Assembly (NCBI GenBank): GCA_001972305.1
Contig: BDDD01001676.1
Location: 121,312 to 185,311 of the forward strand
Length of the DNA stretch: 64,000 nucleotides
Reading direction: 5' to 3'
From: Cephalotus follicularis
Taxonomy: Eukaryota; Streptophyta; Magnoliopsida; Oxalidales; Cephalotaceae
Both the position numbers and the translations under genes were made by a program. Shown here piece by piece: positions 1,966 to 62,566 of the stretch (the stretch's first letter is position 1; each line of letters begins with the position of its first letter). The notes below the pieces were generated by a model. It was not told the origin of the DNA. It did not search any database and saw only the letters and a program-made list of their open reading frames with translations.

Positions 1966-2126
1966 GCCGACTGTTTCAGGACTCCAGTCGACTGTCGAAG
2001 GGGTGGCAGTTGACGACACAACAGGGCCAGTCGACTACATCAACTGGACTGCAGGCAGTCGACTGTGACAGGGTTCCAGTCGACTGCTCAACACAAAACA
2101 ACCGACTGTTCATATGGGCAGCCGAC
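1966..2126. repeat. Phased CAGTCGACTG palindrome array (family A LTR)
   Basis: Cores matching or nearly matching GTCGAC start at about 1966, 1987, 2009, 2030, 2058, 2079, 2101 and 2121, with a weaker one near 2044. Steps are 21, 22, 21, 28, 21, 22 and 20 bp. Full sites read CAGTCGACTG; decayed ones read CAGTTGAC, AGCCGACTG and similar. The intervening sequence differs between steps, so this is not a plain tandem duplication. Confidence 0.9.
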
Positions 2127-3034
2127 TGTTCCAGGTGACAGAACAGCAGTTTTGTGCAGTTTTGTGCAATCTACCTGCCAAAACTCAGATTTCTCAACAC
2201 AAGCAGATTACCAACATCAGAAACAACTTTATATGGCTTGTAAAACGATTTTATAACGCTGAATTCGACATAGACATATTGACAGCAAATTATTTTAAAG
2301 TGACAGAAACTTAAACATATCATGCTTGTGCATAACTCCAATTCTATCCACTTATCATGATTACATGCATCAAAACCAGATTATACAATACTCCCTAGGT
2401 GTCTACAGATTGCTACAACCTCAGGATTTATTTGACAGAAAAACAAGAAGGAAGAAATCAAAACAAATCCCTCTCAAGCACCTTATACATGCCCAAAACA
2501 AAATCTTGATAAAACTAACAGCATAACCATCACAGTAAGGCAACAAACTAACCTGCAATGACGACACTAACTGAAGAAGAACACAACTGTTTGACAGAAT
2601 CAAAGGAAAGAACATACACTCAAGGTCTTGACAATGCCATTCAAATATAAATAAAACACTTACTGAATTAAAACTTAAGAGACTAACCTTATTGATGTAG
2701 CAAGAATTACAGAAAACACAGCCCCAATGACACAGGCAGGTTCGGCAGCAGCTATACACGGGAGAAGATGGCTGACACAATGGAAGTGACAGAAACTTAA
2801 ACATATCATGCTTGTGCATAACTCCAATTCTATCCACTTATCATGATTACATGCATCAAAACCAGATTATACATGTAACGCCCGAGATTTTCATGTATTA
2901 TAATTTCACAATGTATTTGTACTTTTGAATTGTGGAATTAATAAAGGATGGATTTTTCGAATTTGGTGATGTTTTCCCATCTCTATAATGTTGAATTTTA
3001 GTGTTAAATGCTAAAAGAATGTAAAAAGGCTAAA

Positions 3035-3203
3035 ACGACGCTGTTCTGGGAGAAACACGTCGACGCCTTTAGAAAGACGTCGACGTCCTTGAGGCATAAA
3101 GGGCGCACGTAGCTGCATGCACATGCACATCGATGCTGACGAAGACATCGACGTCCTTGTGTAAAATGGTGAAAGACATCGACGTCTTTGGAAAGACGTC
3201 GAC
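3035..3203. repeat. GTCGAC palindrome cluster 1 in family B solo LTR
   Basis: Cores lie near 3035, 3059, 3079, 3129, 3147, 3178 and 3198, with flanks giving GACGTCGACGTC or CACGTCGACGCC. The pairs 3059/3079 and 3178/3198 are 20 bp apart; the rest are less regular than in families A and C. The cluster begins about 160 bp inside the LTR start. Confidence 0.8.
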
Positions 3204-3572
3204 GTATTAGCTTCGAATGCCAGGCATGTTACTCTGCTGACAATAACGTGCAAGGGGAATCTAGTTGGGGGCTTTTTGCAGGCGCTTTGAGGCATGGGTT
3301 AGGACGTGTTGGGAATGCACATTACTCCCTAACCTGCATGACTGAAATTATGAGGACAAGTGTGGCATGAGTGTGTACATGCAACAAGTGCAAGAAGAAA
3401 GGGACATGTGTGCATGCAAAGGATGGATAGAATAATGTGGCACTGTCTGGCATGAAGGCTGAGACAAGGACTGAGAAACGAGCCCAGCTGTTGCATGCAG
3501 AGGTGGGGGTGTATCCTAGACACATGTGACCTGCAACAAAAATGCCGAGGAAGAAGAAAGGAGGGTGAGTTG

Positions 3573-3580
3573 CATAAAAG
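3573..3580 (+). promoter_or_regulatory. TATA-like box of family B LTR
   Basis: CATAAAAG lies downstream of palindrome cluster 1 and upstream of a purine-rich stretch (GAGAGGAACACTGTGAG) in the likely transcribed part of the LTR. The call rests on sequence and position only. Confidence 0.4.
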
Positions 3581-4057
3581 ACAGCCTCCACCTCCTACCT
3601 TCGACTGTTATTGATTGGAAAGAACCAGAGGCTTGAGAGGAACACTGTGAGTGTGAGAAAATAGAAAGTAAAGGAGAGAAAACATTTCCACCATTGTTGA
3701 GCTTGGAGCTTGGAGCTTGTGGCTTGCAGCAACGGGAAGGACCTAGAGGCTGCCGTGACCAGTTTGGAACGTAAAGAGGTGGACTTTCCAGTTCCTAACT
3801 TGGGACAAAAGGTAGGGGAAAGCCATGACTGTAATCTTGAGATTGATATTCATGCATGGTCTATGGTTTTGATGTATGAAATGCATGATTCTTGAACTGA
3901 TTTTGTCACTGGATTGATGCCATGATATGCAAGATATGTATTGAGTATCTGCATGTTGGTTTCTTGCCTTGATTACCTGTTATCGTGCATGATTATGGGT
4001 TGTATTGGATACTGTGTGTTAAGTCGTGAGGAAGAAGATGACTGCTGCTAGAAAGAC

Positions 4058-4355
4058 ATCGACACCTTTTAACGAACATCGACGTCTTTTGGGTTTTGCC
4101 TTGTTACTGATGTAAAAGGGATCGACGTTTATGGAAAGACGTCGACTCCTTAGGCTATCTGGTTGGGTTCTGACGTATTACAAGTTGATGCCTAAGGTTC
4201 CCACCTTAATGCGTCGACGCCGTGAACAATACGCTGTCGTTCTGAGGTTCCAGACCTTGAGCGTCGACGCGTATGAAATGGAATCGACGCCTTCTTCTGT
4301 AGAACGCGTTGACATTAAGGACTTGGACATCGACGCCTTTTGGATAGACATCGAC
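4058..4355. repeat. GTCGAC palindrome cluster 2 in family B solo LTR
   Basis: Cores lie near 4058, 4078, 4121, 4141, 4213, 4234, 4263, 4283, 4308, 4329 and 4350. Many successive pairs are 20-21 bp apart. Typical sites are GCGTCGACGC and GACATCGACGCC. The cluster lies about 1.2-1.5 kb into the LTR, a position matched in family C. Confidence 0.82.
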
Positions 4356-6512
4356 GCCTTTGGTACTGTTTGGGGTTTTTCTTCATCTAACGATACGAAA
4401 CGATCCCGATTCCTGTTAGAGTGCATTTGAGCATTTGTATGCATTACATATGCACTGTTTACTGCCTGATTGTATATTGTTTGTGAATTGTTTATGATTT
4501 CTAAAGTTTTAATATTTAGAAATGCATATGTGAACTCAAAATGTGATATTTTGAGCATGAAAAATATGTATTGGTTAATAACGTATTTTCGAACGAACTG
4601 ATAAACCATTTACACTACTGAAACTGTTTAAAGGTATTTTCTATTGAAAATATATATTTCAAATGTTGTCACTTTTGGAAACATTTTGGAAATAACTTGC
4701 CTGTTGTGGAGCAAATCGATCACTACTGTTTACTGTACTGTTACTGCTTGAATTCACTGTTTGCTCTGTGAATTGCTATGTGTTTGTGCTTGAACCACTA
4801 GTTGCATGGCGGAGACTGCCAGCGCCGGCTAGTGGTAGGGTTGACCTAGGGTCCAAGAGTATGGCTGGGTAACTCGCTGACTATACTGTTGCCTCGCTCG
4901 GTTGCCTGATGTAGGGGCCGGAGTGGGAGTGTAGTGTGGGGCCAGGAGTTGGCGGCGCTACACATACCGCCTGTTGTGGTCCTACGTGGACATCCTGCCT
5001 GTTGTAGTCCTATGTGGACATCCTGTACTGCCTGTTGGTCCTTTTCGGACATTGCTGTGCTTGTTGATGTAGCCCTGGCCAGGATACGAGTATACTGATC
5101 TTGCATACATATATTTTCTTATATATGTACCCATTGTTATTTTACTGTACTGTTAAAATATATATATTTCTCACATATATATATGAACTGGTTTTCTACA
5201 CTGCATCATTTATGCATACATTACATGACATGCATTAATGTTGATCCCGAGCTACTTTTATGGCTTAGCCGAGTGAGGGCAAAGGCTAACCCCCTACTTT
5301 ACAGATTGATGCAGTGGACCGATTGGACTGACATGGACGAAGATCAAGTTGTTATGTTCTTGATTTTGTTTCTCCTGTTCTGTAATAAACTGTTGTTTAT
5401 GGATTTATGATGTACCGTTGATTATGGTTTTGCTTAATGATGGATTCTAATCTCGTACTGTAATTCACGCACCGTTTTATGGGCGATTAACTATGGTGAC
5501 TTGTATTTGGGTAGCGTGCAGTATGGGATGCACGTTACGAGTTACAGCTTATGTCTTGTTATGCTTCCGCAACTGATGTTCCTTGGAAAAGTTTTAAATT
5601 TTATGGATTTTAAATGAGCTGTATTTTATGTTAATTGCCTTTACCGCTTTTATGTTATGTTTCTCTTAAACGGGGTGTGACAATACAATACTCCCTAGGT
5701 GTCTACAGATTGGTACAACCTCAAGATTTATTTGACAAAAAAACAAGAAGGCAGAAATCAAAACAAATCCCTCTCAAGCACCTTATACATGCCCAAAACA
5801 AAATCTTGATAAAACTAACAGCATAACCATCACAGTAAGGCAACAAACTAACCTGCAATGGCGACACTAACTGAAGAAGAACACAGTTGTTTGACAGAAT
5901 CAAAGGAAAGAGTCTTGACAATGCCATTCAAATATAAATAAAACATTTCCTGAATTAAACCTTAAGAGACTAACCTTATTGATGTAGCAAGAATTACAGA
6001 AAACACAGCCCCAATGACACAGGCAGGTTCGGTAGCAGCTATACACGGGAGAAGATGGTTGACACAATGGCATTGTCTTACATAAATAGCAAAGAGGAAG
6101 CTAAAACGGAAAGGATAGGAAAAGGAAACCAAATCAGTTTAGATAAGGAAGATGTGCAGATTTTCAGGGAGAGAAGAAGGAAAGAGGGAGAGGATTACGG
6201 GAGAGGATATTGAGAAGGAGAAAGTGACGGGAGAGATAAGGGAGGGAGAGGGAAAAGATAAAAAAAAAATTAAGAGAATTATGGAAATAAAAGAAATAGT
6301 AATTTTAATTAATTTTTTTTAAAAGGTTTATAAAATTGATTTATAAATATAAAATAACCTAAACTTTACCAAACAAAATACTCATACTCACATACCCAAA
6401 TCCAAGGCTGGTATCAGTCAGCCCAAAAACATAAACCCAAAATAAAGTAGACAACTACTAAACGAAACAAATAAAACCCGTAAAAAATGCGTACAGGCAA
6501 CAGGGTATTACA

Positions 6513-7516
6513 AGATCCTTCCCGTCCGACCGGTCAAACTCAGTCACTCAAAAATTAAAAAATATCTTAATATTTTTTGATTTTTTTTAAGTAAAGTTGT
6601 CTAACCGATTAGACCCAGACCCTTTTACGGATCGAGCTTCGATCCAAATTTTAAAATATCAGTTATTAATATGCGTAATTCATCTTTTAAATTTTTTTTT
6701 GAAAAAACTTTTCATTTCATCTTTGATCAAAAGTGCACCGAAAGTTGGGTTCATAACGTGATTACATATTCTCTTTTGTTTTTGAACAAAAGTTCAGGTG
6801 TTGATATTGATAGGTAACAAAACATGTACATGAAGTGTTTATAGATCTACCCTTTATCAAAACTCAGTGCAGTAAAGGATTTATCAAAACTCAGTACTGT
6901 GTGAAAGCAAAAATAAAGAACTATTTTTATCTAAACTCAGTTGGGTTTTTATTTATCAAACAGTAATTGAAAATTGCTTTTATCTAAACTTAGTTGAGTT
7001 TACTTAATTGAGTCATATAGGTTACAAGCTAAAATTGAATCTAAGAAAGGAAGAAAATGAGAGAATTTGCTTTATTATTTGTTTCTCTTTTTTTTTTTCT
7101 TTTTTTTATATGCCATAATTTGATTTCAACTCTTTACCAAAGCTCAAAGAACTTCAAAAAACATAAGAGTCTATCCAGTGGAATAAAGTAGTGTTCTTAT
7201 TTTTTAAGTTAAATCCCACAAGAAAGATACACATTTGTCTTAACATGGTTTATTTAGTCTCATAATATGGCCCCTAAGGTTCTCTCTCTTTTGTTTCGCA
7301 TCAAAGTAACAGAAAAAAAAATGTACAAATTACCAAAAGCCAAAGAAAGAATCTACAAATAACGCTCACACCCTCCCCTACACCTAAATCATGCAATGTC
7401 CTCAATGCATGCAGAAAATAAAGAATAAAGATAAGGGAGAGGGATCATACATTTCAATCAATCATCAAGATAAATAGGATCATGGAGATCTATGACCTCT
7501 TCCACTATAGTAGTTC
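6513..7516. other. Non-coding stretch, 3' flank-like part of the Athila mosaic
   Basis: I find no gene in this AT-rich stretch. Around 6855-7000 the words TATCAAAACTCAGT and TATCTAAACTCAGTTG recur four times as a loose short repeat. At 7371-7420 the minus strand reads GCATTGAGGACATTGCATG, then GATTTAGGTGTAGGGGAGG. This resembles the 'attgaggacaatgc' and purine-rich signature known between integrase and the 3' LTR of Athila/Tat elements. It is probably the 3' non-coding end of an Athila-type copy. Confidence 0.45.
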
Positions 7517-8900: not shown

Positions 8901-9456
8901 CGACGCTGAGTCTCCAACGGATATGAATTGATCGACCAATGTGGAGTCTGTTTATGGGCGTCGCTGGAGCTAAGTGAGTTGGCCGGAAACTGGCCGAAGC
9001 TCCGATGGCGGCTGTGCTTGGTTTCCGTGCGTAGAGTGTAACGGAAACGTGTTGTATATGCAGGGTGAATAAAGTGATCAAGGATAGGAGGTTCCCAAGC
9101 GATGGCGATTCGATAGCCGGTTCAAGCTTGGAGGAGCTGACGGTTCGTCAGTTCTGCTACAGAATCCCTGGAATAGCAATCGCAACTGTTGTTACTGCTT
9201 CAACTGGTAGGTTATACTATCTGCATTGCATTCATGCATTTCAATGAATTGTATGAATTGTTACTGTGTTACTGTTACTGCTACTGCGTGTTGACTGATT
9301 ATTATACTGTTATTGAAACTGCTACTGTTTACTGGTTATCGCACCGACTGGGAACTGGGTATGGATCCATAAACTGTTTTCACTGAGATTGAAATGGATT
9401 TCATGGGTTTTGGGCTTAGTTCCATTGATTTGCGAACTGTTGTTTCTGATGAAACC

Positions 9457-9739
9457 GTCAACACTTTACTGCTTTCAAAACTGACCTGTCGACGCTCTTA
9501 TGCTTTCAAACTGAGTAGTCGATGCTTTATGTTTATGTTTTCTAAAACCATCGACTCTTTCGTGTGTTAAAACTGAATAGTCGACACTTTACTGCTTTCG
9601 AAACTGACCCGTCGACGCTCTCATGCTTTCAAACTGAGTAGTTGATGCTTTATATTTATGCTTTCTAAAACCATCGACTCTTTTGTGTGTTAAAACTGAA
9701 TAGTCGACACTTTACTGCTTTCAAAACTGACCCGTCGAC
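9457..9739. repeat. 31-bp-phased GTCGAC array in 123-bp tandem repeat (family D)
   Basis: Cores start near 9457, 9488, 9518, 9550, 9580, 9611, 9641, 9673, 9703 and 9734, in steps of 30-32 bp. A 123-bp unit of four sites is repeated about 2.3 times. The four sites in a unit differ in flank (ACACTTTA, CGCTCTTA, ATGCTTTA, ATCGACTC), so the site spacing is older than the unit duplication. Confidence 0.92.
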
Positions 9740-10019
9740 GCTTTGTGCCCTGTTTTGCGAAATGGCACTGTTTCTTGCTGTCTTCAAATCCAAACTGTTT
9801 CTTCTTTAAATTGATTCCATAGGAAGCCTCTCTAAGGCCTTGTACCCTATGCGAATCATCTTATAACACTGTTGAATCTCCAATCAAGTTTTCAAAGTGA
9901 TTCTTGAAGCAATGCAACAAAAGAGTTTTCATGCAAATGGGTTTTAAGAATGGTTAGGATAGCCCTTTTTGGACATCTGGGCCCGGATATCCAATTGGAC
10001 TTCCTCTCCATTGTTTTAC

Positions 10020-11825: not shown

Positions 11826-12540
11826 TCATTCTCAACTATAGTAATGCCGGACTTCTTTGGTACTACATGAGTGGGACTAACCCATTTGCTGTCAGAGATG
11901 GGGTAAATATTGCCAGCATCTAACCACTTCACAATCTCATTCTTGGCAACTTCGTGTATATTTGGATTTAATCTTCAATGTGCATCCCTAAAAGGTTTAG
12001 CACAATCTTCACAAAAAATCTGATGCTTACAGATAGATGGGCTTATGCCTTTCAGATCTGCCACTGATCACCCAATGGCTTTTTTGTGATCCTTGAGAAC
12101 TGCCAAAACCTTGTCTTCCTGATTAGTAGTCAAACTAGATGCAATAATGACAGGGAGTGTCTCATTCAGCCCCAAGTAAGAATACTTTAAAGAGTCAGGT
12201 ACGGACTTTCTGTCTAAAACAGGGGGAGATTCTATGGAATTCAGCATTGGTGACTTTGCCAGAGCAGGTAATGGCTCAAATTTATATGTCCACGGAGGAA
12301 GATTTGAAGAGATAGGAAAATTCAACAAGGCATTAATCTGAATAGTGTCTGTATCACAATTGTCACCAAAGATGCTCAAATATTGCTGCAGAGAGTTATT
12401 TACAAGTGTATCAGGTGCACACTCGGATACCACCTCATCTATCATATCTATGGAAAAACAATCCTCCTCACCCTGAGGTCCTAGGGCTGCATTGAAGATG
12501 TTTAGTCTCAACTTCTTATTACCAAAGGATATGTCCATGG
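11826..12540 (-). pseudogene. Athila-type pol: RT N-terminal part and linker
   Basis: Next to the solo LTR the minus strand encodes KWLDAGNIYPISDSKWVSPT and HVVPKKSGIT, the start of the Athila RT domain. To the right (12068-12538) is the linker region, with words DISFGNKKLRLNIFNAALGP and LNETLPVIIASSLT, typical of the segment between Athila protease and RT. Part of the same fossil as 7843-8136. Broken. Confidence 0.85.
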
Positions 12541-13139
12541 ATCTAAATCGACGGTTTATGCAAGCATTTGCTGTGGCTAAGAAAGGACGACCTAAGATAA
12601 TCGACTACTGTTTCCCATTCGAAGGGGTTTCCATATCGAGCACAAGGAAATCCACTAGAAAATAGAGCTCGTCTACTTTCACTAAAACATCTTCAATGAA
12701 TCCCTTAGGAATTTTTAGAGATCTATCAGATGGTTGAAGAGTCACCTCAGTGGGTTTTAATTCTCCAAACCTAAAATGGTCATAAACCGAGTGAGAGAGG
12801 ATGTTAATGATGGCCCCTAAATCCAGGAGTGCTATCTCTATATATAAATTTCCAAATCTTACAAGATATCAGAGGAGCTCCAGGGTCTTTTAGTTTAGGT
12901 GGCAGCTTGTTAGAAAGCACTGCGCTCACCTGCTCTGTTAGATGGACAGTTTTCGGAATATGAGTTTTCAGCTTACGCTTCATGGTGCATAAGTCCTTTA
13001 AGAACTTGGCATATGCTGGCACTTGCCGTATAGCATCCAGGAGAGGAAGGTTGATCTGGACCTGCTTAAACAGTTCCATCATCTCTTCCATCATTGCCAC
13101 ATTTTTACCAAATGGAGGAACAAAAGACAGAGATCGCAA
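12541..13139 (-). pseudogene. Athila-type protease region
   Basis: Minus-strand words include PLLDAIRQVPAYAKFLKDLC, LTEQVSAVLSNKLPPKLKDP and GAPLISCKI, then ILGRPFLATANACI nearer the RT. These are hallmark blocks of the Athila gag-protease junction and aspartic protease domain, which would cut the polyprotein. Part of a broken fossil. Confidence 0.85.
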
Positions 13140-14510
13140 ACAGTCAGGAAAAGTTGCTTAAGATGAAACAAGAGTAATGTCTTTTTCCTTCGCCAGGTGT
13201 TCACTCTCCTTATGCATAGAGGCTGTAGTGACTTCCAGGTCAGACTTACTGAGGGCCTCTTCCTCACCACTCTCTGAGGACACTTTCTCCTCCGGACTCT
13301 TATCATGAATCAGGTCAGGATTTGGAATAGTTACTTGCGGTTCTTCGATTACCCGACCACTTCTCACAGTAGTAATTGCTTGGGCTTGTTCTAAGTAGGA
13401 ACGATGTCCATACTGATTTTTAGGATTGCCTACCACTTGACTAGGTAGGTGTCCTTCTTCTCTCTTCCTGATGATATCGGCTAGCTGTCCTATTTGAGTT
13501 TCCAATTTGGAGATGGATTGGGTATGGGAGTGAAGGATCTGATCATATTTCTGGCCATTCTTGTTGAGCCCATCCAAAGAAAATAGTACCTTATCCATTT
13601 TATATTCAGTTGCCTTAGGCACTTGAGGTGGTGGAAGATTAGATTGTTGCACATCCCTATAGGCATTTTGATAAGCCAGGGTATTGTTTTGCCTATAAGG
13701 GGGATTGTGGCTGGTATTGGGCTACTTCCATCCAAAGTTGGGGTGATTCCTCCATCCCGGGTTATATGTGTTGGAGAACGAATCATTCCTCAGTCTAGGG
13801 AATCCTTGCACTGCCTGCACTTGTTCTTGATTAAATTATGGATATTGCACAGTAAGCGGGAAACCACTCATATAATGTGTCGGGCTAGAACAAAAGGAGC
13901 AAGCCTCTTGTGCAATAGAAGTCTGAGTAGATTGCGTAGGAAGCGTCCCTATAGTTAGCACTTTATCTAATTTCCGAGATAGGATGTCCATCTTATCCTT
14001 GATGGTCTCAAATTGGCTAACCTCATGTATACCCCCTTTCTTCTGAGTACCCATTGCAGAGAACTCTACTCTGGATGATAAATGATGCTGAGATTTCTTG
14101 CTGAGGGATTCAAACAATTGGCAGGCATCGTCCTCATTTTTTTGCATAAATGTGCCTCCACAAGAAGCAGCCACCATCTGTCTATTTTGTGCGATCAATC
14201 CATCATAGAAGCATTGGACTAACTGCCATTTAGGTACGGCATGATGGGGGCATTTCTGATGAGGTCCTTTAATCTTTCGCATGACTCATGGAAATGCTTA
14301 CCATCTTGCTGCGAGAAGCTAATGAGCACTCACCTTATCTGGTTGGTCCGATCTATGGGAAAATATTTCTTAAGGAACTCCTTCTGTAATTGTGCCCATG
14401 TGGTGATAATCATAGAGTCGAAGGAATGGAGCCATTGTTTAGCTCTATCCTTTAATGAGAATGGAAATAAAATCAGCTTAGGGCATCCTCAGACAAGTTC
14501 TGAATTTTAA
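13140..14510 (-). pseudogene. Athila-type gag region
   Basis: The right part encodes words WAQLQKEFLKKYFP and SFSQQDGKHFHESCERLKDL. The middle encodes HHAVPKWQLVQCFYDGLIAQ and MVAASCGGTFMQKNEDDAC. The left part encodes KLETQIGQLADIIRKREEGH and TTVRSGRVIEEP. This order and these blocks match Athila gag (capsid part, then the C-terminal coiled region). Gag would form the particle. Several breaks are present. Confidence 0.85.
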
Positions 14511-15471: not shown

Positions 15472-15489
15472 TCCCCAGCAACGGCGCCA
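15472..15489 (-). other. tRNA-Asp primer binding site (Athila type)
   Basis: On the minus strand this reads TGGCGCCGTTGCTGGGGA. That is complementary to the 3' end of tRNA-Asp including CCA, the known primer of Athila/Tat elements. It lies just inside the LTR. Confidence 0.9.
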
Positions 15490-15491
15490 AA

Positions 15492-17012
15492 ATTTTATTC
15501 GATGTCGTTGAACTGATTCAAAATTACCATAATCTAACAATTAGCACAATGGAAAGTAGGGATCGTTCCCACGAAGAGCTGTAATGATACGCAATATAAA
15601 TGAACTTAGCGTGCACTTAAACGAAAATAACGAACACAAAATTAATTTTACCTAAGCGAACAATGCAAATGGAGAAACTTGAAAAGAGAATTGATTTGAA
15701 TTAAACTACTTTAATGAAAAACTGAACAATTCAGATCAAATATTTAATGCAATATGACAAAATAAATAGGAAATTGATATGAGAAAACAGTCCCTTAGAT
15801 GTGAGAATCCCCCATGTATATATATATATACTCAAGTTCATGGCATAAATTCTGGTTTAAGATAACATCACAGAAAATAATGATTTAGCCTAGATTCACC
15901 CTATCCTGTCAAACCTTGATACTCTCAAAAGGTTGATTGGTTAAAGAATGTCTTTGGTGCAATCACATAGAAAAATTAAGAATCATAGCATGATGTAAAT
16001 GAATTAGAGCTACAAGCACTAAAACATCAAACATATTTTATATCATTAAAATTCCTTCTAATCAATGTTCCACACACATTAACAAGAGAAGAGTGTCTTA
16101 CATGCATGCCATTAAACCAGAAAACCAGACTTGAGATATATAAAATACATGGGTTCATCTACATCCAGGGATTAAGATGTTTAGCCGATCATGATGGTGG
16201 TGGTAGTAATCTTCTTCAGAGAATTGTGCATCCAGTAGTCGCCTCTGTTCGTTAACCAGCTTCCCTTTCTTTCTTTGTTATCCTTTTCTTTTTATACTCC
16301 AATTCTCAACAAAAAACGAAAAAAAATCTAACCTACTACAATCTGAATCAAACTGTAAAAACTTCCCAATTCTGTTGCCTAATACGTTGTAAGCGTCGAT
16401 GCTTAAGTTTTAGGAGTCAATGGTTTGGCGTTTTGCATTGACGCTTTGATATGTTGAATGCGCTAAGCGTCGACGTATATGTTGCGTTCTTTAGCTGACT
16501 TAGGTGTTAGGTGCCGACTCTTACAATCAAGGCGTTGAGGCTTAACTTGGCATTGACATCTTCCTCAATGCACGTTAACGGCTAATCTACTATCTTATTT
16601 GTTCATTTTTGGCGTTGACGTCTTTATCATGGTGTTGACACCTAAACATTTGAATTCCCAGCACGTTGACACCAAAAGTTTTGGTGTTGACGAAAATCAT
16701 AAAACTGCAAACTTGTTCCAGCTGAAGTTTAAGGCGTCGACGCTTTCTTTGAAACCGTCAGCACTTAAGAGTTAGGCGTCGACGCTTAATGTCTAAGCGT
16801 CGAGGCTTTGCTCTATTTTATGTAGAATTTTGTTATTTCTTCAATCCCCAATCTCCTAGCTCTCAATCTGCGCGAATTTGACTCGTGTTTCTGCATTTTG
16901 ATCTTTTTGGCCTGTTACCTGAAAGTCAATTAAACACAACCAAAGTAATATGTTCTATGCATAAAAATACAATAATTAACTCATTAAAAAGAATACATTT
17001 TTATGCTCAACA
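15492..17012 (-). mobile_element. Athila-type LTR (right)
   Basis: The minus strand starts TGTTGAGCATAAAAATG at 17012, the usual Athila LTR start, and runs to the primer site. Length is about 1.5 kb. It holds a GTCGAC palindrome array at 16395-16804. The exact inner end is uncertain because several CA dinucleotides lie before the primer site. Confidence 0.8.
16395..16804. repeat. 21-bp-phased GCGTCGACGC array (Athila LTR)
   Basis: Cores are near 16395, 16416, 16437, 16469, 16513, 16534, 16552, 16614, 16634, 16665, 16686, 16736, 16757, 16778 and 16799. The last four are spaced exactly 21 bp, as are the first three. Intact sites read GCGTCGACGC; others are decayed (GCATTGACGC, CCGTCAGCAC). Confidence 0.9.
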
Positions 17013-25122: not shown

Positions 25123-25238
25123 ATTCTTTTGATTCTAGCCGTTGGTAAAGAAATAGAGCCGTTGGAGAAGTCTTAGAAGTTGTTGCTACAAAGTTGGCTC
25201 TTTAAAACATGATTAGTAGCATTTCTGCAGCTTAAAGC

Positions 25239-45924: not shown

Positions 45925-46009
45925 CTTCCATTACGACACCATCGTACTGGCAACCATAGCCTTGCGGCTCAAGGCATTAGTGAACACATTCGCTTTCCCC
46001 TGGTGGTAC

Positions 46010-47150: not shown

Positions 47151-47735
47151 CTCTCGCAACTCGGCAGGAGCCATCCGATAAGGTGATTTAGAGATAGGAG
47201 CCGTTCCAGGAACAAGATCAATAACGAACTCCATACTCCTCTTTGGTGGTAAAGACCCCAAGTCATCCGGAAACACATCTGGAAATTCACACACAACCGG
47301 AATTTCCTCCATACTCAAACCCTTCTCTATCATTTGATCAATTACATAAGCCAGGTATCCCTCGCATCCCTTCTCTAGATACTTCGATGCTCGAATAAAG
47401 GATATGATCGGTGTCGAGAACCCTTTGTCTCCCTTGAACTGGAATGTCGTTCCATCGGGTAGACAAAAGTCCATAGTTTTATTATAACAATCCATGCGAG
47501 CACGGTGTGCTGATAGCCAATCCATCCCCAGTATAACATCAAAGTCACGGATAGGCAGTACAATCAAATCTCCATACAAAGAAATGCCCGCCATAGACAT
47601 CTCGCAACTCCTATATATCGAGTCAGTGTACATAGATGTCCCAGTCGGTGTACTCACATCAAGCACATATGACATGCAGTCAGGGGAGACATCTAAACAA
47701 GATGCAAAACGTGCAGATATAAAATAATACTCCAA
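47150..47735 (-). pseudogene. Protease region (family B)
   Basis: The segment encodes [40 protein letters not shown] and [20 protein letters not shown]. These are the usual blocks between the chromovirus protease and the RT start. It would cut the polyprotein. Broken. Confidence 0.85.
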
Positions 47736-47867
47736 AATCCATCAACACTCTAGCAGAAAACCATATATATACAGAGTACCTCCAACAATGGAAGTCGACT
47801 CTGGAACCTCTGTCTGAGCAAGTACAAAAACTCTACCTTGTGCGACGCCCTTGCCAATGTCCTTCCT

Positions 47868-48986: not shown

Positions 48987-49082
48987 TGGTTCCTATAAAG
49001 AGGAGGACTATTAGTCACGACTTTAGGAAAACAATTCATTAATTGCCAAGGAAAATATCCTAGCTAAGCATATATTGAATAT

Positions 49083-49094
49083 GCTCTGATACCA
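49083..49094 (-). other. Perfect iMet-type primer binding site (family B)
   Basis: On the minus strand this reads TGGTATCAGAGC, four bases inside the 5' LTR end at 49099. Confidence 0.95.
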
Positions 49095-50405
49095 CTCTTG
49101 TCACGCCCCGGTTTCAGGTAGACACACATAAAAGTGGTAAAAGCAATTAACAAGAAGATTCAGCTCATACAAATACCATAAAATTTAAAATTTTCAAATA
49201 AGATATCAGTTGCGGAAGCATTATAACTCATAAGCTGAAAACACGTAATGCGCATCCCATACTACACCCTACTCAATATAAATCTGTCATTGTTAAAAGC
49301 CCACAAAACGGAGCGTGATCACAGTACACTAACCCAAAAGTAAAGTACAATAGATAACCATCAGTACAGTACATCAGTATCCTTAAAACAAAACAGTTTA
49401 TTACAACCCAGAAGAACATAAAGCCAACAACAATTAAGATAAGGCTTGTTCTTCGTCCAAGCTAGTCCAACACCGGTCCACTGCATCAATCTGTAAAGTA
49501 GGGGGTTAGCCTTTGTCCTCACTCGGCCAAGTCATAAAAGTAGTTTTGGATCAACATTACATGCATGTCATGAAATGTATGCGTAGATGATGCAGTACAG
49601 TATTGAAAAAATATATAAGTTAGCAGTATAGTAAATTAACAGTAGGAGCATATATATGAAAAATATGTGTATGCAAAAATAGTACAGTAGTAGCCCGGCC
49701 AGGGCTACGTCAACAGGCACAGTAGAGTCCGAATAGGACCAGTAAATAGTATAGTAACTCCACAAAGCGACCACAAACAGGCAGGCAGTATGTGTAACTC
49801 CGCCAACTCTTGGACCCACGTTACACTCCCACTTCGGTTCCTTCTCCAGGAAACCAAGCAAGACAACAGTACAGTACAGTGAGTTACCCAGCCAACTCTT
49901 GGCTCCTAGGTCAACCCTGCCACTAGCCGGCGCTGGCAGTCTCCGCCATGCAACTAGTGGCTCAAGCACAAACACAGTAAATTCACAGAGCAAACAGTGA
50001 AATCACAGTAAATGGTACAGTAAATAGTACAGTAGTGATCGTTTAGATCGACAACAGGAAGTTCATTTCAAAATGTTTTCAAAGGTCATAAACATTTGAA
50101 ATATGCATTTTCAGTAGATAGAAAATACTTTTAACAGTTCAGTAGGTGGAAATTACTTTCCCAGTATGTTCAAAAATATAACAATATTCATTTTATATTT
50201 CCATACCCAAACATTGTAGTTTTCATCTCATATATGCATTTCTAACGTAACAATACTTTAGAAATCATAATCAATTTATAAACAGTCAGTAACAGACAGT
50301 AAACAGTACATATGCAATGCATACAAATGCTTAAATGCATCCTAATAGGAATCTGGATCGTTTCGTATAGTTAAATAAGAAAACTTCCAAACAGTGCAAG
50401 AAGGC

Positions 50406-51565
50406 GTCGATGTCTATTATTAGGCGTTAATGTATTTGTCCCTCAACGTCGACGTTCAAGTCCTTAGCATCAGCGCTTTCCACTGTTTGAAGACGTCGAT
50501 GTCCATCTTTATACGTAGCGACGCTCAAGGTATGGAACCTTAAACGTCAACGTATTGCTTAAGGTGTCGACGCGTTAAGGTGGGAACCTTAGGCGTCGAT
50601 GTATAATACGTCCATATCCAAGCAGATAACCCAAATGCGTCAATGTTCTTCAAAGACGTCGATGTGTTTCGAGCACCAGTCGTTTTCTTCCTCACGACGT
50701 GACAAACAGTGACCATCAAAATCCACATACATGCAAGACAATATGTAATCAAGGCAGGAAACCAACATACAGATACATATTACATACCCAGCATAACATG
50801 GAATTGATCCAGTGATTAAAAATAGTTCAATAATCATACAATCTATACAGAAAAATAGTAGTCAGGCATGAACATTAATCTCAAGAATACGATTATGGCT
50901 TCCCCTACCTTTTTGTTCCAAGTTAGGAACTAGAAAGTCCACCTCTTTAAGTCCTAGAACCGGCCACAGCAGCTCCAAGGATCGTCCCGTTGCTGCTAGC
51001 CCACAAGCTTCAAATTCCAAGCTCTAAAATGCTCAACAATGGTGAAATCTCTCTCCTTGTTGGCACTCAGGTGTTTTTAGCCGAACCAGTAGGGAGAAGA
51101 GGAGCATTTATGCTATGGGAACTCTCCCCTTTCTTTACTCGTCCGTTGCGCGCATCTCACAAGATACATTTTCCCATTTTTCTCTCTTTCCCAACTCTGT
51201 CTCTTTTCCTCTGCAGGAGCAGGTGATGAAGATTCTCTCTCAGCCTACATGCACACCCAAGTGTCATGCCATCTCTTCTCTTCCCTGCATGCCTGATAAC
51301 ATACCAGCATGCTCAATACCTAACGTCCGTGCCCCAAAGCACCTACGAAGTGACCTTAAGTTGTCACCTTGCATGTTATTCTGTCAGCAGAAGAACGTGT
51401 CTGTCATTTGTCGCTAAACGTCGACGTTTTTATGCAGGCATCGATTCTTATAGCGTTTTACCTGAAAGGCGTCGATGCTATTCACTGGCGTCAATGTGCA
51501 TGCACATGCATTCACGTGCGTCCCTTTGTTTCAAAGGCATCGATGCGTTCAAAAGAGCGTCGACG
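50406..51565. repeat. GTCGAC clusters in family B 5' LTR
   Basis: Cores lie near 50406, 50426, 50448, 50469, 50495, 50517, 50546, 50566, 50595, 50617, 50638 and 50658. Steps are mostly 20-22 bp, with some of 26-29. A second cluster lies near 51418-51565 (ACGTCGACGTTT, GCGTCGACGCG). Confidence 0.87.
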
Positions 51566-51763
51566 CGTTTATCCCAAAACAGCACCATTTTATCTCAAAT
51601 TGCCCTTTTACCATTTCTTTAACATTTTTATTCCAAAATCAATATTATTAGAGTTTGGGAAACATCATCAAAGTTGGAAAATCCATCATATTATTAATTC
51701 CACAATAAAGTATATTCACATTGTGAAATTATAACATATGAAAATCTCGGGCATTACATTAAC

Positions 51764-53325: not shown

Positions 53326-56070
53326 TGTAATGCCCTATTTGTTCGTATGCATGTTTTACAGACTTTTAATCTGTTTGTTTTCGGGCTTTTTAATTAGTTT
53401 CGTTATGAACTCCGTTTGCCCTGTTTCGGGCCTATGTGTTTTGGGCTGACTGATACCAGCCTAAACTTTGGATATGTTGGTATGTGAATGCTTTTTGGAT
53501 GGGCTTAGGTTTATGTCCTTTTTGATATATTTAAATTTCATAATTCCTAATTTTGTTTTATTTTTTTTCTTCTTTTCCTTTTCTTTTCTTCTTTTTCCTT
53601 TCTCTCTTCTTCCTCTCCCGTAGGACTCTCTCTCCCAAATTCTATCTCTCCCGAAATTCTCTCCCGAAATTCTCTCCGTCTCTTAACTCCTCACACGTTT
53701 TCCTTATCCAAATCAGTTTTGTTTTCTTATTCCTTATCTTACCCGATTTGCTTCCTCTTTTCTATTTAAATATGTTATTACCTTTGTTTCTGCCACCCTC
53801 TTCTCTTTCGCTGGTCTTAGCCGAATCTGCCATTGTGAACTCATTGTGTTCTCTGTGTTTCTGCTTCATCAAACAGGTTTGTTTCACCATGGTTAAGTGT
53901 AGGAATCTTTTAATTGGTTTGTATAGCAGTGACAGACTTTGAAATGTTTGTCTTCTTCATTTTCCTTTTGAACAGCCATTGAACACCTTTGATTTGGTGT
54001 CTCTACAACTGTTGTTGGTATCCTTCAGGTTTGTCTCCTTTGTAGTTATGGCCGGGTAATTGTTTTTGGTCTTAATGTTATCCGAATCCATGGTTCATAT
54101 AGGCTGTTAGAGTGGTTGTGATTCTTATCATTGTTTTGTGTCATGTTAATCAGTCCTTGGGCATCTGTGTAAGTTGTAATATGGTCTTAGAAACTGAGAG
54201 TGACTTGTGACAATAAAATTGGACTATAAATAGGTATGCATATGATTAGAGGTTACTTTGTTTTCTCCTTGAATATAGCTACTGGTTTTTATGGTAATGT
54301 GAATTCTGTGTTTTTCTGCTGTCTAAACATCATCCAATGTCACATAAATATGTTTATAGGCCTCTGATATAATGTTATTCAAGTTTGACATGTTTCTGTA
54401 GAAAAATTGTTAAGTTTCTGTTGTTCTGTCATCCAGAATAGTCGGCTGGTTTTATGGACAGTCGGCTATTGTATGTTGAGTAGTCGGTTGCCCTATGAAT
54501 CAGTCAACTGCTTTGCCTTGCACAGTCGACATGACGTCTATCACAGTCCACTGCATGCAGTCCAGTTTGTGTAGTCGACTGGCCATGTGGATTAGTCGAC
54601 TGCCAATCTTCCATAGTCGACTGGAGCTCTGTAACAGTCGACTGTTTTCCCCAGGAAATTTCTATTTTCAATTTTCTTGGTCCGTTTGCATTTCTGGTTG
54701 ATCAGGGTCTGTCCTGAACACTGTTATAAATCTGTTTTATGCCCTTAATGTTTTTCAGACCCTTAAATGAATGATTTTATGTCTTTTAGATAGTTGTCCT
54801 TTGAAGGGCAGTTAAAAATTAATCAGTCTTTTCGTAAGTCTTTTCTGTAAGCGCATAAGGTACGAATACTTCGTTTCTTGTCACTCTCTTCGATAAATTC
54901 AGTTTTATTTGATGTTCCTTCGATTTTATGAACTCGGGTTATATTTTATGATTTAGATATGATTCTGAAAATAAAGTCAGTTTTGACATCTTGTGTAATT
55001 GAATGTCCTTGACCTTATACTTATGCTATGATATGTTATGAACTATGTTATGATCATCTCTTTATAGTGGAAATAAATGAGTTGATGTTCCGATTATAAA
55101 ATGTATGTTATGATATCGTTTGTTAACGATTTTTGAATATGTTTCGAAAAGGCATGTTTGCATGGATTTTAAATTGATTATGATAAATCAATGTTTTCGA
55201 TATTATAAAATACTGAGTATTTGTACCCACCTATGGGGCGTACCATAGGCATGTCGTAGGCCTGGCACGGGGACATGACACTTCCGTAGCGGTGTGATTA
55301 GTCTACGGTGTCTCTGCATGTTATGAATAACTCCCATGAGGTGGATTTATGGCTCTGTTATGTATGATAGAGGCGTATGAATCGATTCTAGTATATGGCA
55401 TACGTGATGAGTTATGCAATGTGTGATATGATATGATATGAGAATTTACTTGTGTAGTGTCGTACACTTCAATTCTAATGGGCATGTGGAATTAGCGTCT
55501 CCCTTGCCATCTATATGTTCTGATACATGATATGTTGTGTGACTCAGTATGAAATTTATGTTTTCGTGTATGTTTTGGAAGTTATGGATTTGACTTCAAA
55601 GAATGTTTAAACTGATTTACTGCTTAAGATTTATGTTTCGAGATAACTTTTGAAATCTTACTGCTTTTAAATTATCGTTTACTGTTTTACATTCTTTATT
55701 CGTACTGAGGTTTGCTCAGCCGCATTTTTGTTTCCATGCGGCAGGTTATCAGGAGCACCGGGGGAAAGTGTGATTGAGAGATGTCCACCGTATGTCAAGG
55801 ATCCTCTAGGAGTGTGATCCTGCTATGTTTTCTATTAGGATTGGTTTTGAACAATATGTTACTTAATGATTTAAGTTCTCAGTTTTTGACCTATGAACAT
55901 GTTTAAGTTTTAGATTATGTTAAGTTTTCAGTTATGGCATCTGAATAAGCTATGTTATGACCACCACGTATTTTGCTAATAAAGTTATGCTTATGTTCAG
56001 TTAAGATATGTTATGTTAAGTTCTGTTAAGTTATGACCTGTAATGGTTCCCACCGTTCGGGGGTGTTACA
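53326..56070 (+). mobile_element. Solo LTR, family A, nested in an inverted sister LTR
   Basis: It starts TGTAATGCCC and ends TTCGGGGGTGTTACA, with TSD GAAAC at 53321-53325 and 56071-56075. Length is 2745 bp. It has one GTCGAC array at 54441-54643 and the block GCGGCAGGTTATCAGGAGC near 55738. Inverted relative to its host LTR. Confidence 0.95.
54441..54643. repeat. 21-bp-phased CAGTCGACTG array (family A solo LTR)
   Basis: Cores are near 54441, 54461, 54483, 54503, 54525, 54546, 54573, 54595, 54616 and 54638, in steps of 20, 22, 20, 22, 21, 27, 22, 21 and 22 bp. One longer step of about 27-28 bp is shared with the arrays at 1966-2126 and 57419-57515. Confidence 0.93.
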
Positions 56071-57418: not shown

Positions 57419-57515
57419 GTCGACTGTAACAAAATCCAGTCGACTGTTCAAAGGGTGGCAGTCGACTGTATAGCATAGGCAGCCGACTACACTGACTGGG
57501 CTGCAACCAGTCGAT
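57419..57515. repeat. CAGTCGACTG array (family A inverted solo LTR)
   Basis: Cores are near 57419, 57439, 57461, 57482 and 57510, in steps of 20, 22, 21 and 28 bp. Fewer sites than in the sister LTR at 54441. Confidence 0.88.
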
Positions 57516-58775: not shown

Positions 58776-60170
58776 AGTTGTATCAGGGCAACCTAATGAG
58801 CTATAATTAAACATTTTTTTTGATATCTAGTGGCTTGTAGGTTAACTTTGTGTTTTGACAGATTTTTGCAATTTCGACCCTAGAGTGCAATTGGCTATTT
58901 TGGTTCAATTGGAATGTTGCTCATTCTAATTGATTTGTCAATTGGGTGAACTAGTGTAATCGACTAATTAATGGCTAGTTCGATGACCCGAAGATTAGTA
59001 CATATGGACTTTAAGATGTAAGGGAGCATTTAAACATCCGATGTACGATTTAGGATCTCGAATAGACCTTAAAAGGTCACCAAACGAGGGTTTAAAAAGG
59101 GAATGTATTTTTTCTTGAAAACTAGTTGCGTGCATTTCTTTCTGTGAAGGTATTATGCACTTGTTAGTATAGTCTGTCTAGTAGATAACCTGGTTGTTAA
59201 GAGGACAGACACACACTATGGTGTTTCAAGAGAAAATTTAATTCACTTATACACTCAGTTCATTAATATAATTCAATATATTTCAAGAGGAATATTAATA
59301 TTAGTTTACTAATATTCAATTGCATTATTCTTTTATTCGCTCAAGCAAATCAAATGGAAGAGCCATGAGATTAAATGTAGTAAGAGACTATATTAAGGGA
59401 CACTAGATTTTAATTAATTTAGTGGGAGTTGCATTCCCGGTCAGCCATTAGTAAAATCGACAAGTCATTAAATATTAACTTGTTTACGTGTTTATTCATT
59501 AAATATATTGGTTATATTTTTTGAATTTCTTATGCATGCTGGTAGGCTTGGGACTAGACCTAGCATTCTGGTTTCTCTTGTGGATGATTTAAATTCTTTG
59601 TTTTGTATATGGAATTCATATGGTCTGTAATAAGGCTGCCTGCGCGTGCCATCTTTATTTCTTACTCTTATTTTATTCGTGGTAGAATAGAAATCTCTTC
59701 TCCCTCAATTGTATTTCTTTTTCTTTTAATGTTTACTATGGTTGTAAAATTCAATAAAAGAGACCAATGGAGATTGAAGAGAGGATCGAGAAGATTACAA
59801 GACCAAGTGAAGGCCATGTATGCATGGTAGCATATGTAATAAAGTAATTTAAATTAGTACACCTAGGAGACCATGTGATCATGTTGGCTCGCGTGATCAC
59901 ATAGAGTTTATGTCCCAAGTCATGCCACTTTTATGGTGCATGAGATGAATGTTTTCTTTTGCAAACAATCCAAACATGTCCAAGCATGTAAGCCGTTCCA
60001 AAGGGATTGGAAGATTAAAAATGAATCTTAGAAACAACTTTGGTTAAATAACAAAATTTGATGAGACCATAAAATTCCTCCAAACTTGGAAATAATAAGT
60101 CCATAAGCGGTGGGGCATATGACTGCCCTATTGTTGGCCTTCCATCATCTTCGTTGAATGGTGTGGACAT
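58776..60170 (+). mobile_element. Interior of copia-like element, no gene seen
   Basis: It begins AGTTGTATCAGGGC, a primer-site-like sequence (10 of 12 to TGGTATCAGAGC) right after the LTR end. Long AT-rich sequence follows without a recognisable gag or pol. Small open stretches (for example 59603-59830) show no family resemblance. A short A/T-rich tract and a reverse-complement pair near 59875-59900 (GTGATCA/TGATCAC) are the only small features. Confidence 0.55.
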
Positions 60171-61451
60171 TGTCACACCCCTCCTTCCGTTAAAGACAAC
60201 ATAAATGGTGATATCAGTTATAAATAATCCAACACTCAACATTTAAACAAATTTCATTTAACATAAGCGGAAGCATTCATTGCCGGATTATAAAATTATC
60301 CGCACGCAGCCCATACTACGTGCTTATACAATACTAACAATTATCCTTTTACATATTGGAAATGTAAAACAACAACAACAGAGTATGATCGTTCACTACT
60401 AAACAAAACATAGTGAATAACAACTTTAACAAAAATAGAAGCTCTCCAATAAAGCTTCAGCAGCACTTCCCGAACCACTTCACTTAATCTGAAATTGTAG
60501 GGGGTTAGCCGTTGTCCTCACTTGGCTAAGTAGGAATAAAGCATGATAAAGAATATATAAATGTAACATGCATGTCAGTTATTTTGAATATGTAAGTATT
60601 TCAATATATATAAGCAATCATGCCAAGTGGCCATAGACAATACAATTCAAGAATACCGTACAAGGGTAAAATCAATCAATACAGTATTTTGGGTGTCACA
60701 TGTCGCTAACTCCTAGCACCAACTGCGCACCGCCTAACTATCACCCTACAATCCGAAGATGATAGGTCAGGTCAATCCTGCCGGCATTTAGCGGGCAAGT
60801 AATAATCAGGAACTGCATTGCAGATAAGTTTGGTGGAAGCTCTAGCCAACTCCTGGCACATAGGACCACCCCGTAGCCAGTGATGTCTCCTATGACTCGA
60901 CTAACGGCAATAACATAGACAAACAATTCAATCAATCAATAGCAATATTACATATATCTATAATATACGATATAAAAGTTGTTTTCTTTTAGAAATGTTT
61001 AACAGTTCAGTGACCGTCCTCTCTTTTGGAGGAACATTATTCAATACAGTAGTTGTGCCTCTCATGGGAGGAAAATCAGTAATCATTTGACAATAAGTTT
61101 TCATTTTGGAAACAATAAGGAAAACTTGTATTTGTGCTTATAGCACTAGTTGGTTCAATCATTAATATTAAGTGTAACAATAGTATTTATGAACACTTAA
61201 CAGCTATACAGTATGTATAACAGCATCAATAAATAGCAGCAGAATAATCAATTCAAGGGTTCAACAAGATGTTAGCATACCCTAGTCATTCTTGCACAAC
61301 TCTCACAAGGAGTGCACACGTTGTTTACTTTCTGTAATATAACTACCTAAGGCCAGGATTGACTGTTACAATCATCCCATGTGGAGGCCAGGGTAATTAC
61401 ACATAATTTAAAGCCTAACAGCAGCAAATTTTAGTATTTTGTCACTTAACA

Positions 61452-61561
61452 GACGGCTGTTCATAAGAATAGCCAGTTGTTTTCATTAGGTAGTCGACTG
61501 TTTGTCCTTAACAGTCGACTGTTTACATTGAGCAATCGACTGTTGGGATTAAACAGTCAAC
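61452..61561. repeat. 21-bp-phased CAGTCGACTG array (family C solo LTR, cluster 2)
   Basis: Cores are near 61452, 61472, 61493, 61514, 61535 and 61556, in steps of 20, 21, 21, 21 and 21 bp. The most regular array in the window. Confidence 0.93.
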
Positions 61562-62490
61562 TATTTTTGTCCAGAATCGTTAGGCAGCAGTTTCATAAAA
61601 ACAGGGTATTCATGCTCACAATCAAATTCTAACCAATCAATAACATGCAATCATACAGAAATCATCCAGGCATGATATACATATTATATCTTCTAAAACA
61701 TGTCAATACCCCTACCTCAATCTCTATCCCAGAATCAAATTGGATTGATTCTTCGCTTTGAGTTCCAACTTCACTCAACACCAAATCTTCCAAATTCCAG
61801 CAATTAATCTATATGGTTGCAGGTTTACAGGTTTAGATATCAACAACAGTATGTTTATCTAGTTATCTAGTCATGATAACAACTATGATTCGAATAAGTA
61901 GCTTATCAGTAATTTCTAAAGCTTCAATTTCACATTTTTAAACAACTTTCTCACTTCCATCTCTAATTCCAGGATTATAATTCCAAAGTTATGTTTAACA
62001 GTGGATACATATAACTAACATCAGTATGTTTAATTCACTAACAACCTTAATATCAGTAACAACTCGAATGGTGACTTACCAGGAAGATTTAAAGCTTCAA
62101 ACTCCACTTGCAACTCCAACTATCAACATGCAAGCTCCAACAATTCTCTGATTCATTTTTTCTCTCCTCAGTGTTTCCTAACACTCAAATCACTCATGCA
62201 GTCTCTGTTATAAAGGAAATTGTATTCCGATTCTCGTTTCATTCATTAACTCCAATTTTTAGCCTATCCCTCTTTCTCTCTCTTACATGCATCTTTATTT
62301 CTCTTTTGTTCTTCTAACTTCTGTTTTGCAGGTTGCAAGTCTGCAAGTCTACAAGAGGAATAGAGAACATGCAAGGCCTCACCCTTGCATGTTGTTACAG
62401 CTGGTGGCATGCATACAAAACCTGTCCATTGCATGCCACACCTCCACTCTGTCTCACGCCATGCATAGACACTTGTCCTGTGCCTTACCA

Positions 62491-62566
62491 GTCGACTGTA
62501 TTTACTTGGCAGTCGACTGTCCACTCAACGAATCCACCAGTCGACTGTTCCCCTGTGACAGTCGGC
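62491..62566. repeat. CAGTCGACTG array (family C solo LTR, cluster 1)
   Basis: Cores are near 62491, 62512, 62540 and 62561, in steps of 21, 28 and 21 bp, 180-250 bp inside the LTR start. Same position as cluster 1 of the other family C LTR. Confidence 0.9.

Follow-up and report, generated by a model that had tools for sequence, protein, structure and literature searches.

The closest known description of palindromes arrayed in long terminal repeats (LTRs) is that of the RM motif of Sireviruses. In the accessible part of that account, RM is palindromic, is present in 8–32 copies per element, and lies mostly in the upper half of the LTR, before the TATA box (PMC2829016); it was reported there to be specific to Sireviruses and absent from classic elements, with a CGG–CCG signature in 12/13. 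Here we describe arrays of a ~10-bp palindrome with a GTCGAC core, found in a 64,000-nucleotide stretch of the Cephalotus follicularis genome (assembly GCA_001972305.1, contig BDDD01001676.1, positions 121,312–185,311, forward strand; hereafter, the window) and across the assembly, with neighbouring cores preferentially spaced by 20–22 bp and with arrays in LTRs of both Ty1/copia and Ty3/gypsy elements. The whole genome scanned, of which the window is a part, amounts to 1.577 Gb in 9,746 contigs. Site-level comparisons were made on the window plus a sample of 25 stretches of 10 kb (loci named L0xx), taken from evenly numbered contigs and not by random draw; the two together make 314 kb with 205 exact GTCGAC sites, 65 from the window and 140 from the sample.

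The resemblance to RM is close in several respects. The grape RM, CGGTCGACCG, has the same GTCGAC core, and many palindromic copies with divergent flanks are present, as in the available text on RM (PMC2829016); a TATA-like box stands shortly downstream of a core in six of ten LTRs. Placement in the upper half of the LTR was also found, with cores at 132–486 of 1084 bp in L011 and exact cores at 272 and 366 of 1021 bp in the window LTR starting at 26904. In contrast, the grape RM, and with it the CGG–CCG signature, was not among the 40 commonest decamers of the 205 sites; the arrays also accompany Ty3/gypsy domains and occur in two copia elements (L031 and L021) not assigned to Sireviruses; and the 21-bp phasing of the boxes is not mentioned in the accessible part of the RM account (PMC2829016).

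Other systems share single features with these arrays. As far as the available text goes, the motifs read by VANC proteins in VANDAL elements are likewise short, dense in non-coding transposable element (TE) DNA, and spread by tandem duplication, and VANC6 acts also on the unrelated AT9TSD1, whereas these motifs are non-palindromic, in single orientation, and located in DNA transposons that encode their own reader (PMC5735166). The present arrays have the density of a VANC-type target and not its common orientation, since a palindrome has none. The LTRs of ONSEN, Tnt1, and Tto1 reportedly contain stress-responsive enhancers, with factor sites in U3 that are few in copy and confined to single families. 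Rider also has transcription-factor sites in U3, sometimes repeated, but these are few and belong to a single family, and the accessible part of the account describes no phased palindrome across superfamilies (PMC6762207). In maize, one palindrome, CACCGGAC, is shared by two TE orders, Copia and Helitrons; its sequence is different, and no spacing rule is given in the part of the account available (PMC10760457). In the open-access literature, we found no paper combining the terms palindromic, LTR retrotransposon, and GTCGAC, and the matches to the decamers had no LTR-retrotransposon titles among those listed; nor did we find there the extension to Ty3/gypsy, the strict 20–22-bp rule, the dialects described below, or the genome-wide scale, which does not establish their absence from print.

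Abundance and spacing of GTCGAC cores

The 65 exact GTCGAC sites of the window compare with a mean of 6.45 (standard deviation, 2.42; maximum, 16) in 100 dinucleotide shuffles, in good agreement with the initial annotation, which had estimated about 60 against roughly 7–16 expected. Among the 64 palindromic hexamers, GTCGAC shows the strongest excess in the window, at 10.5 times the dinucleotide model (runner-up, 4.1 times). Genome-wide, it occurs 849,481 times and its reversed control, CAGCTG, 231,366 times, and a 200-kb sample contains 120 copies against 17.2 predicted from dinucleotides. An origin by chance was rejected on the basis of the shuffles, the ranking among palindromic hexamers, and the spacing null described below. 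A simple satellite was also rejected as the source; L017:1–10000 consists entirely of satellite (unit, ~163 bp) and contains no GTCGAC.

Distances between cores, measured start-to-start for exact GTCGAC over the whole genome, are sharply restricted. Within the 176,928 pairs at 18–24 bp, 166,339 lie at 20–22 bp (55,446 per base), in line with the 20–22-bp stepping and the 21-bp peak initially proposed, whereas the 15–17-bp class contains 373 pairs (124 per base). Uniform placement of the 849,481 sites would, by arithmetic, give ~457 pairs per base; the 20–22-bp class thus stands ~120 times above uniform and ~446 times above the 15–17-bp class per base, and the latter falls below uniform. Triples with two successive 20–22-bp steps number 41,157, and the control with the reversed pattern gave 152. 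That palindromes in general are in excess at this distance was rejected, with CAGCTG giving 1,742 pairs at 20–22 bp; GACGTC (19,603 pairs) is no independent control, because dialect B sites such as GACGTCGACGTC supply many of its listed pairs through their outer arms. In the 314 kb, 40 pairs lie at 20–22 bp against a mean of 4.9 (maximum, 13) in 500 trials of a jitter null, with two pairs at 6–19 bp and none at 23–26 bp.

Among the distance classes counted, 27–29 bp ranks second, with 24,429 pairs (8,143 per base), followed by 31–33 bp with 7,445 pairs (2,482 per base). When nine periods were fitted to the pooled distances, 10.25 bp did best (R, 0.46), and 7 bp came close (R, 0.43), in line with a 28-bp step. 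Because a 28-bp step intervenes (49 = 21 + 28), not every site can be located on one side of the helix: "two turns" describes neighbouring cores, and "all on one face" fails for whole arrays. The strict one-sided helical phasing of the initial annotation is therefore not retained. Of the 13 core coordinates that it gave, five are exact GTCGAC and the others deviate by one (four sites), two (two sites), three (one site), or four (one site) mismatches. Two further features of the spacers were observed. Many of the 17-bp pairs, among the 15–17-bp pairs listed, share the spacer AGAAGAGCTAT or near-variants and constitute a separate family; many dialect A spacers of 28-bp steps, among those listed, share ACACGCATCAGG or a CACGTG-like motif, perhaps the putative site of a second factor.

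The palindromic unit and its two dialects

Dyad symmetry extends past the hexamer. Over the 205 sites, the two halves match at the first outer position in 67% (37% if independent) and at the second in 55% (33% if independent), with weak symmetry at some further positions. Because mirror matching covers two bases beyond the core, the unit is a palindrome of ~10 bp around GTCGAC. Two main dialects, differing in the bases adjoining the core (AGTCGACT vs CGTCGACG), were recognized: A, CAGTCGACTG, and B, [GA]CGTCGACG[CT]. The leading decamers are CAGTCGACTG (49 sites) for A and GCGTCGACGC (26 sites) for B, the latter with its relatives CCGTCGACGC (15), ACGTCGACGC (13), and ACGTCGACGT (8), together with a hybrid, CAGTCGACGC (8), and a minor form, GAGTCGACTC (6). 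Both dialects obey the spacing rule genome-wide: pairs of CAGTCGACTG at 20–22 bp number 37,144 (control, 132), and pairs of GCGTCGACGC at 19–23 bp number 3,529 (control, 4).

B and its ACGT-armed form mingle inside arrays, and A is mostly found in arrays of its own; in the sample, exact neighbours separated by no more than 100 bp comprise 28 A–A, 16 B–B, and two A/B pairs, and 21 with an unclassed site. Forms with one mismatch, namely ATCGAC and GCCGAC with their reverse complements, GTTGAC, and GTCAAC, are enriched near the cores, and the arms are sometimes retained after the centre has changed, as with AGCGTCAGCGCTTT in L011.

Arrays in both LTR retrotransposon superfamilies

The arrays and elements recognized in the window are as follows (strand given where assigned; PBS, primer-binding site; ORF, open reading frame).

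1964–2100: dialect A array (CAGTCGACTG); exact cores 1987, 2030, 2058, and 2079, degenerate GTTGAC 2009.
3051–3203: dialect B array; cores 3059, 3079, and 3198; 73% homologous to the LTR end 43925–44377.
4058–4355: dialect B array; cores 4141, 4213, and 4263; degenerate ATCGAC and GTTGAC sites.
9457–9748: dialect B-type array; cores 9488, 9580, 9611, 9703, and 9734; 31- and 92-bp steps; partly a 123-bp tandem duplication.
15477–15489, minus strand: Athila-type PBS, TGGCGCCGTTGCTGGGGAG, one mismatch to the Athila 13-mer; cores 16469, 16736, and 16778 upstream in sense.
16736–16804: dialect B array; exact cores 16736 and 16778, degenerate 16757 (GTCAGC) and 16799 (GTCGAG).
20894–21008: dialect B cores 20894, 20941, and 21003.
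24589–25609, minus strand: LTR of a short element, 97.8% identical to 26904–27924; cores 25239 and 25333 and degenerate sites.
26904–27924, minus strand: partner LTR of the short element; cores 27554 and 27648.
33883–37184, minus strand: LTR, 91% identical to 38422–41684; cores 35925, 35955, 35984, 36045, and 36076 (steps of 30, 29, 61, and 31 bp).
38422–41684, minus strand: 5′ LTR, partner of 33883–37184; cores 40442, 40471, 40532, 40563, and 41312, then an iMet-type PBS at 38418 (one mismatch).
41723–44377, minus strand: 3′ LTR of a Ty3/gypsy element; cores fall into two array regions, one with 44177 and 44038 (196 and 335 bp from the LTR start) and one with 43062 (1311 bp).
44893–45930, minus strand: ORF with Integrase_H2C2 (E, 2.3e-19; Pfam scan).
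46920–47741, minus strand: ORF with RVP_2 protease (E, 1e-21; Pfam scan).
47868–48707, minus strand: ORF matching the domains Retrotrans_gag and Ty3_capsid.
49119–51759, minus strand: 5′ LTR of the Ty3/gypsy element, 91.7% identical to the 3′ LTR; perfect iMet PBS at 49094; cores 51559, 51420, 50566, and 50448.
54525–54642: dialect A array; cores 54525, 54574, 54595, 54616, and 54637.
57419–57466: dialect A array; cores 57419, 57439, and 57461.
61493–61561: dialect A array; exact cores 61493 and 61514, degenerate 61535 (ATCGAC) and 61556 (GTCAAC); homologous to LTR sequence of L018, L026, and L027.
62491–62545: dialect A array; cores 62491, 62512, and 62540 (21 + 28 bp).

Domains beside the arrays place them in both superfamilies, as had been proposed. 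Dialect A is located in the LTR pair of L031, which is Ty1/copia by its gag_2, Pol_BBD, and RVT_2 domains, and in the L026 LTR (~4007–6704), followed by the Ty3/gypsy domains Retrotrans_gag, Ty3_capsid, RVP_2, and RVT_1. Dialect B is located in the LTR pair of the window Ty3/gypsy element 41723–51759 (Integrase_H2C2, RVP_2, and Retrotrans_gag), in the LTR pair of L011, which flanks a copia-type gag (the three of its internal ORFs that were scanned gave no pol domain), and ahead of the TATA box in L021, a copia element by Pol_BBD. The short window element 24589–27924 is presumably Sirevirus-like, judging from its polypurine tract (AAAAAGGGGGAAAT before the LTR start), and by the same likeness we take L011 and L024 to be so; the L018 and L026 LTRs are assumed to be chromovirus-type from the look of their ends and polypurine tracts. 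The label Athila, initially given to the array at 16736, is unsupported as stated: the PBS matches with one mismatch, and no Pfam family was found in the two ORFs scanned below that array on the same strand (12068–12604 and 13158–13721). The lineages with arrays are Ty1/copia, including Sirevirus-like elements, and Ty3/gypsy, including chromovirus-type elements, with Athila perhaps among them.

A single recently copied family was rejected as the source of the arrays, which lie in LTRs otherwise without clear similarity. Between LTRs of different superfamilies, no match of E < 0.01 was detected outside the arrays; the best match, of 44 bp (79.5% identity; E, 7e-4), falls inside the arrays of L031 and L028, the query for the latter (L028:3000–5793) starting mid-LTR and passing the LTR end. 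Within gypsy, the LTRs of L026 (dialect A) and window 49119 (dialect B) share 46 bp (E, 2.5e-9) elsewhere in the LTR. Distantly related gypsy LTRs thus differ in dialect and unrelated LTRs agree, so that dialect does not simply follow descent.

ORFs matching PF20167 (Transposase_32) were observed near copia-type gag at two array loci (L011:4529–5533 and L027:955–2232, both minus strand). Cores lie near their 5′ ends (2202 and 2223 in L027; 5282 in L011), an arrangement that recalls the Sirevirus motif upstream of env. A first look at the genome gave 13,073 PF20167 candidates, and all of the 150 scored match.

Placement in LTRs and relation to promoters

The window contains three array-bearing LTR pairs. 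With 18 LTR queries, which were partly picked for carrying sites, have some approximate ends, include L028:3000–5793, and miss families outside the set, 48 of the 65 window sites fall inside homologous sequence (41% of the window), as do 86 of the 140 sample sites (13% of sample bases). A location in LTRs is accordingly supported in part, while the earlier wording that nearly all cores are in LTRs goes beyond these figures. In six of ten sense-oriented LTRs (L031, L011, L021, and window 26904, 15490–17050, and 49119), TATAAA[AT] is found within 200 bp downstream of a core, against ~1 expected from a Markov null (0.02–0.20 per LTR); the ten are not all independent, window 26904 being homologous to L024, and L028:3000–5793 was excluded. 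This count uses TATAAA[AT] alone, a second TATA-like pattern having been chosen after seeing L026. The arrangement is compact in L031, in which two exact cores and one degenerate core at 299, 320, and 341 are followed by TATAAAT at 361. Of the 16 iMet-type PBS with at most one mismatch in the window and sample, ten have at least two cores within 3.3 kb upstream, and three have one.

The chromovirus-type LTRs of L018 and L026 have two arrays ~1 kb apart (178–227 and 1292–1394 in L018; 173–270 and 1312–1374 in L026). GTAAGT or GTAAGG follows the upstream array at L018:1705–2450 and window 43500–43560 (both minus strand), and in L018 TTCTTGCAG stands directly before the second array. These signals suggest that LTRs of the chromovirus type contain an intron, whose 3′ edge would hold the second array. 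Two other placements were observed. An array with dialect B sites at L023:4207–4449 lies 147–389 bp downstream of a perfect PBS at 4596 (minus strand), apparently in the leader rather than in the LTR, and an LTR pair of L025 (4145–5047 and 8128–9030; 97.7% identical; perfect iMet PBS) has no cores upstream and is free of arrays.

Conservation of cores and divergence of spacers

In 75 high-scoring segment pairs (HSPs) of <88% identity between elements, the cores diverge at 130/1212 positions (10.7%), the flanks within 11 bp at 911/3617 (25.2%), and the remainder at 8540/43230 (19.8%). CG dinucleotides mutate fast in methylated LTRs; those of the cores were kept between elements in 278/319 cases, against 1558/2665 elsewhere, and at 60–70% identity GTCGAC was kept in 82/122 aligned cases against 224/2625 for other CG-centred hexamers. 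Within LTR pairs, the corresponding divergences are 12/180 (6.7%) for cores in a small sample of 180 bases, 52/572 (9.1%) for flanks within 10 bp, and 673/12138 (5.5%) for the rest, the L024 pair extending past the LTR. Because core divergence is low between elements and not clearly different within LTR pairs, the cores are held during the evolution of lineages and not clearly once a copy has landed, which is the pattern expected of function in active copies.

The spacers behave differently. The 55 listed triples on the plus strand contain 110 spacers, 82 of them distinct, so that their lack of conservation, as initially claimed, mostly holds; identical consecutive spacers occur in one triple, and L018 contains a 41-bp near-duplicate.

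Proposed function and alternative explanations

Regularly spaced palindromic units, mostly unconserved spacers, and conserved cores are what sites for a shared regulator predict. We consider it likely that the arrays are promoter-proximal cis-regulatory modules of LTRs, recognized by a dimeric factor and employed by several lineages in parallel. The ~10-bp palindrome would suit a symmetric protein dimer, and dimers bound at neighbouring sites, ~20–22 bp or two DNA turns apart, could touch and bind cooperatively; the two dialects probably correspond to a pair of related factors or to sites of two different affinities. The factor, made by the host or by a TE, would bind the array in U3, and in chromovirus-type LTRs also mid-LTR, and promote transcription or keep the promoter open. 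Copies with strong arrays would be transcribed and copied, so that cores and spacing would be held while spacers drift; arrays would grow partly via tandem duplication, and unrelated lineages would have come to use the same factor or factors. Of the initial proposal of a regulator shared among superfamilies, phased palindromes in both superfamilies, conserved cores, and unlike spacers stand in its favour, and one-sided phasing and the Athila assignment as stated do not.

Several observations weigh against this proposal. The 27–29-bp class shows that some steps depart from helical phase. In four of the ten LTRs (L024, window 38422, L026, and L018), TATAAA[AT] is absent from the 200 bp after a core, and three of the 16 iMet-type PBS have no core in the 3.3 kb upstream, indicating that the arrays are not universal. 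An inverted LTR fragment separates the array LTR of L026 from gag, making the link to Ty3/gypsy less direct than in LTR pairs. The HSPs are non-independent with overlapping descent, each entered the CG and hexamer counts once per direction, and the alignment of phased cores can slip by a register; core conservation is inflated as a result. Cores also retained CG somewhat more often inside LTR pairs (46/51 cases against 540/699 elsewhere), which makes purely neutral decay after insertion uncertain. Consecutive spacers are also somewhat alike, with a similarity of 0.405 against a shuffled mean of 0.369 (maximum, 0.424; 49/2000 shuffles reach 0.405), or 0.423 against 0.364 in an earlier subset of 44 triples that left out 11, mostly close repeats. 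This raised similarity points to some regularity inherited from duplication; tandem duplication contributes to the arrays but does not explain most of them.

Parallel adoption of a factor overlaps with another history, in which the array had a single origin, in Sireviruses for instance, and was passed on with the same function by recombination among LTRs. The presence of one dialect beside domains of both superfamilies and the weak 44-bp match between the L028 and L031 arrays are consistent with such an exchange, which we regard as possible but rather unlikely; no match of E < 0.01 extends beyond the arrays and most spacers are distinct, although old transfers would leave the same picture.

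A special case of regulatory arrays for a dimeric factor would have as reader a host AP2/ERF protein of the DREB/CBF type, making the elements stress-inducible. The DREB/CBF core consensus is RYCGAC, which GTCGAC, ATCGAC, and GCCGAC with their reverse complements fit. GTTGAC and GTCAAC, also enriched near the cores, fit it less well; ATCGAC in dialect B is equally a product of CG deamination; the flanking dialects are left unexplained; and DREB proteins bind as monomers and are not known to need a palindrome. We hold this identification to be improbable, although the accessible part of one report describes DREB/CBF sites in gypsy and copia elements (PMC11656987).

The palindromes might instead act in the transcript, neighbouring copies pairing into stems that matter in packaging or dimerisation of the RNA or in making small RNAs, a role proposed for the Sirevirus palindromes of maize. 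Five of five dialect A arrays gave better folds than their shuffles (z, −4.35 to −6.90), as did one of three dialect B arrays (z, −4.04), and regions of the maize Sirevirus palindrome attract small RNAs, according to the available text (PMC10760457). Hairpins do not require a 20–22-bp spacing, and pairs at 15–17 bp are rarer than under uniform placement; the TATA box soon after a core in six of ten LTRs also speaks against hairpins, though U3 is present at the RNA 3′ end as well. Hairpins are a serious alternative where dialect A is concerned and less of one as the common cause, a role in which we give them a small chance, since the folds of the other two dialect B arrays differ little from those of their shuffles (z, −1.43 and −1.51).

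It seems very doubtful that one or two TE-borne proteins, perhaps of the PF20167 family, read the arrays in trans as a public means of anti-silencing or activation, with many LTR lineages having evolved or acquired arrays so as to share it; if true, such a VANC-like economy would span superfamilies instead of being confined to one. That the arrays are functionless derivatives of 21-bp minisatellites, with inherited spacing and cores kept by gene conversion, is highly unlikely, since, against the raised spacer similarity, the single triple of 55 with identical spacers, the 123-bp duplication at about 9453–9748, and the L018 near-duplicate, most consecutive spacers are little alike, yet the cores are exact despite a mutable CG, and the same period recurs in LTRs of both superfamilies without other clearly common sequence.

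Implications

An architecture described as private to Sireviruses in the accessible part of its account (PMC2829016) is found here beside domains of both LTR superfamilies. If one factor reads the arrays, it could control much of the retrotransposon load of this genome at once. The arrays offer a direct assay, in the form of one screen with one array, of the way in which unrelated transposons come to depend on a single regulator, whether of the host or shared.

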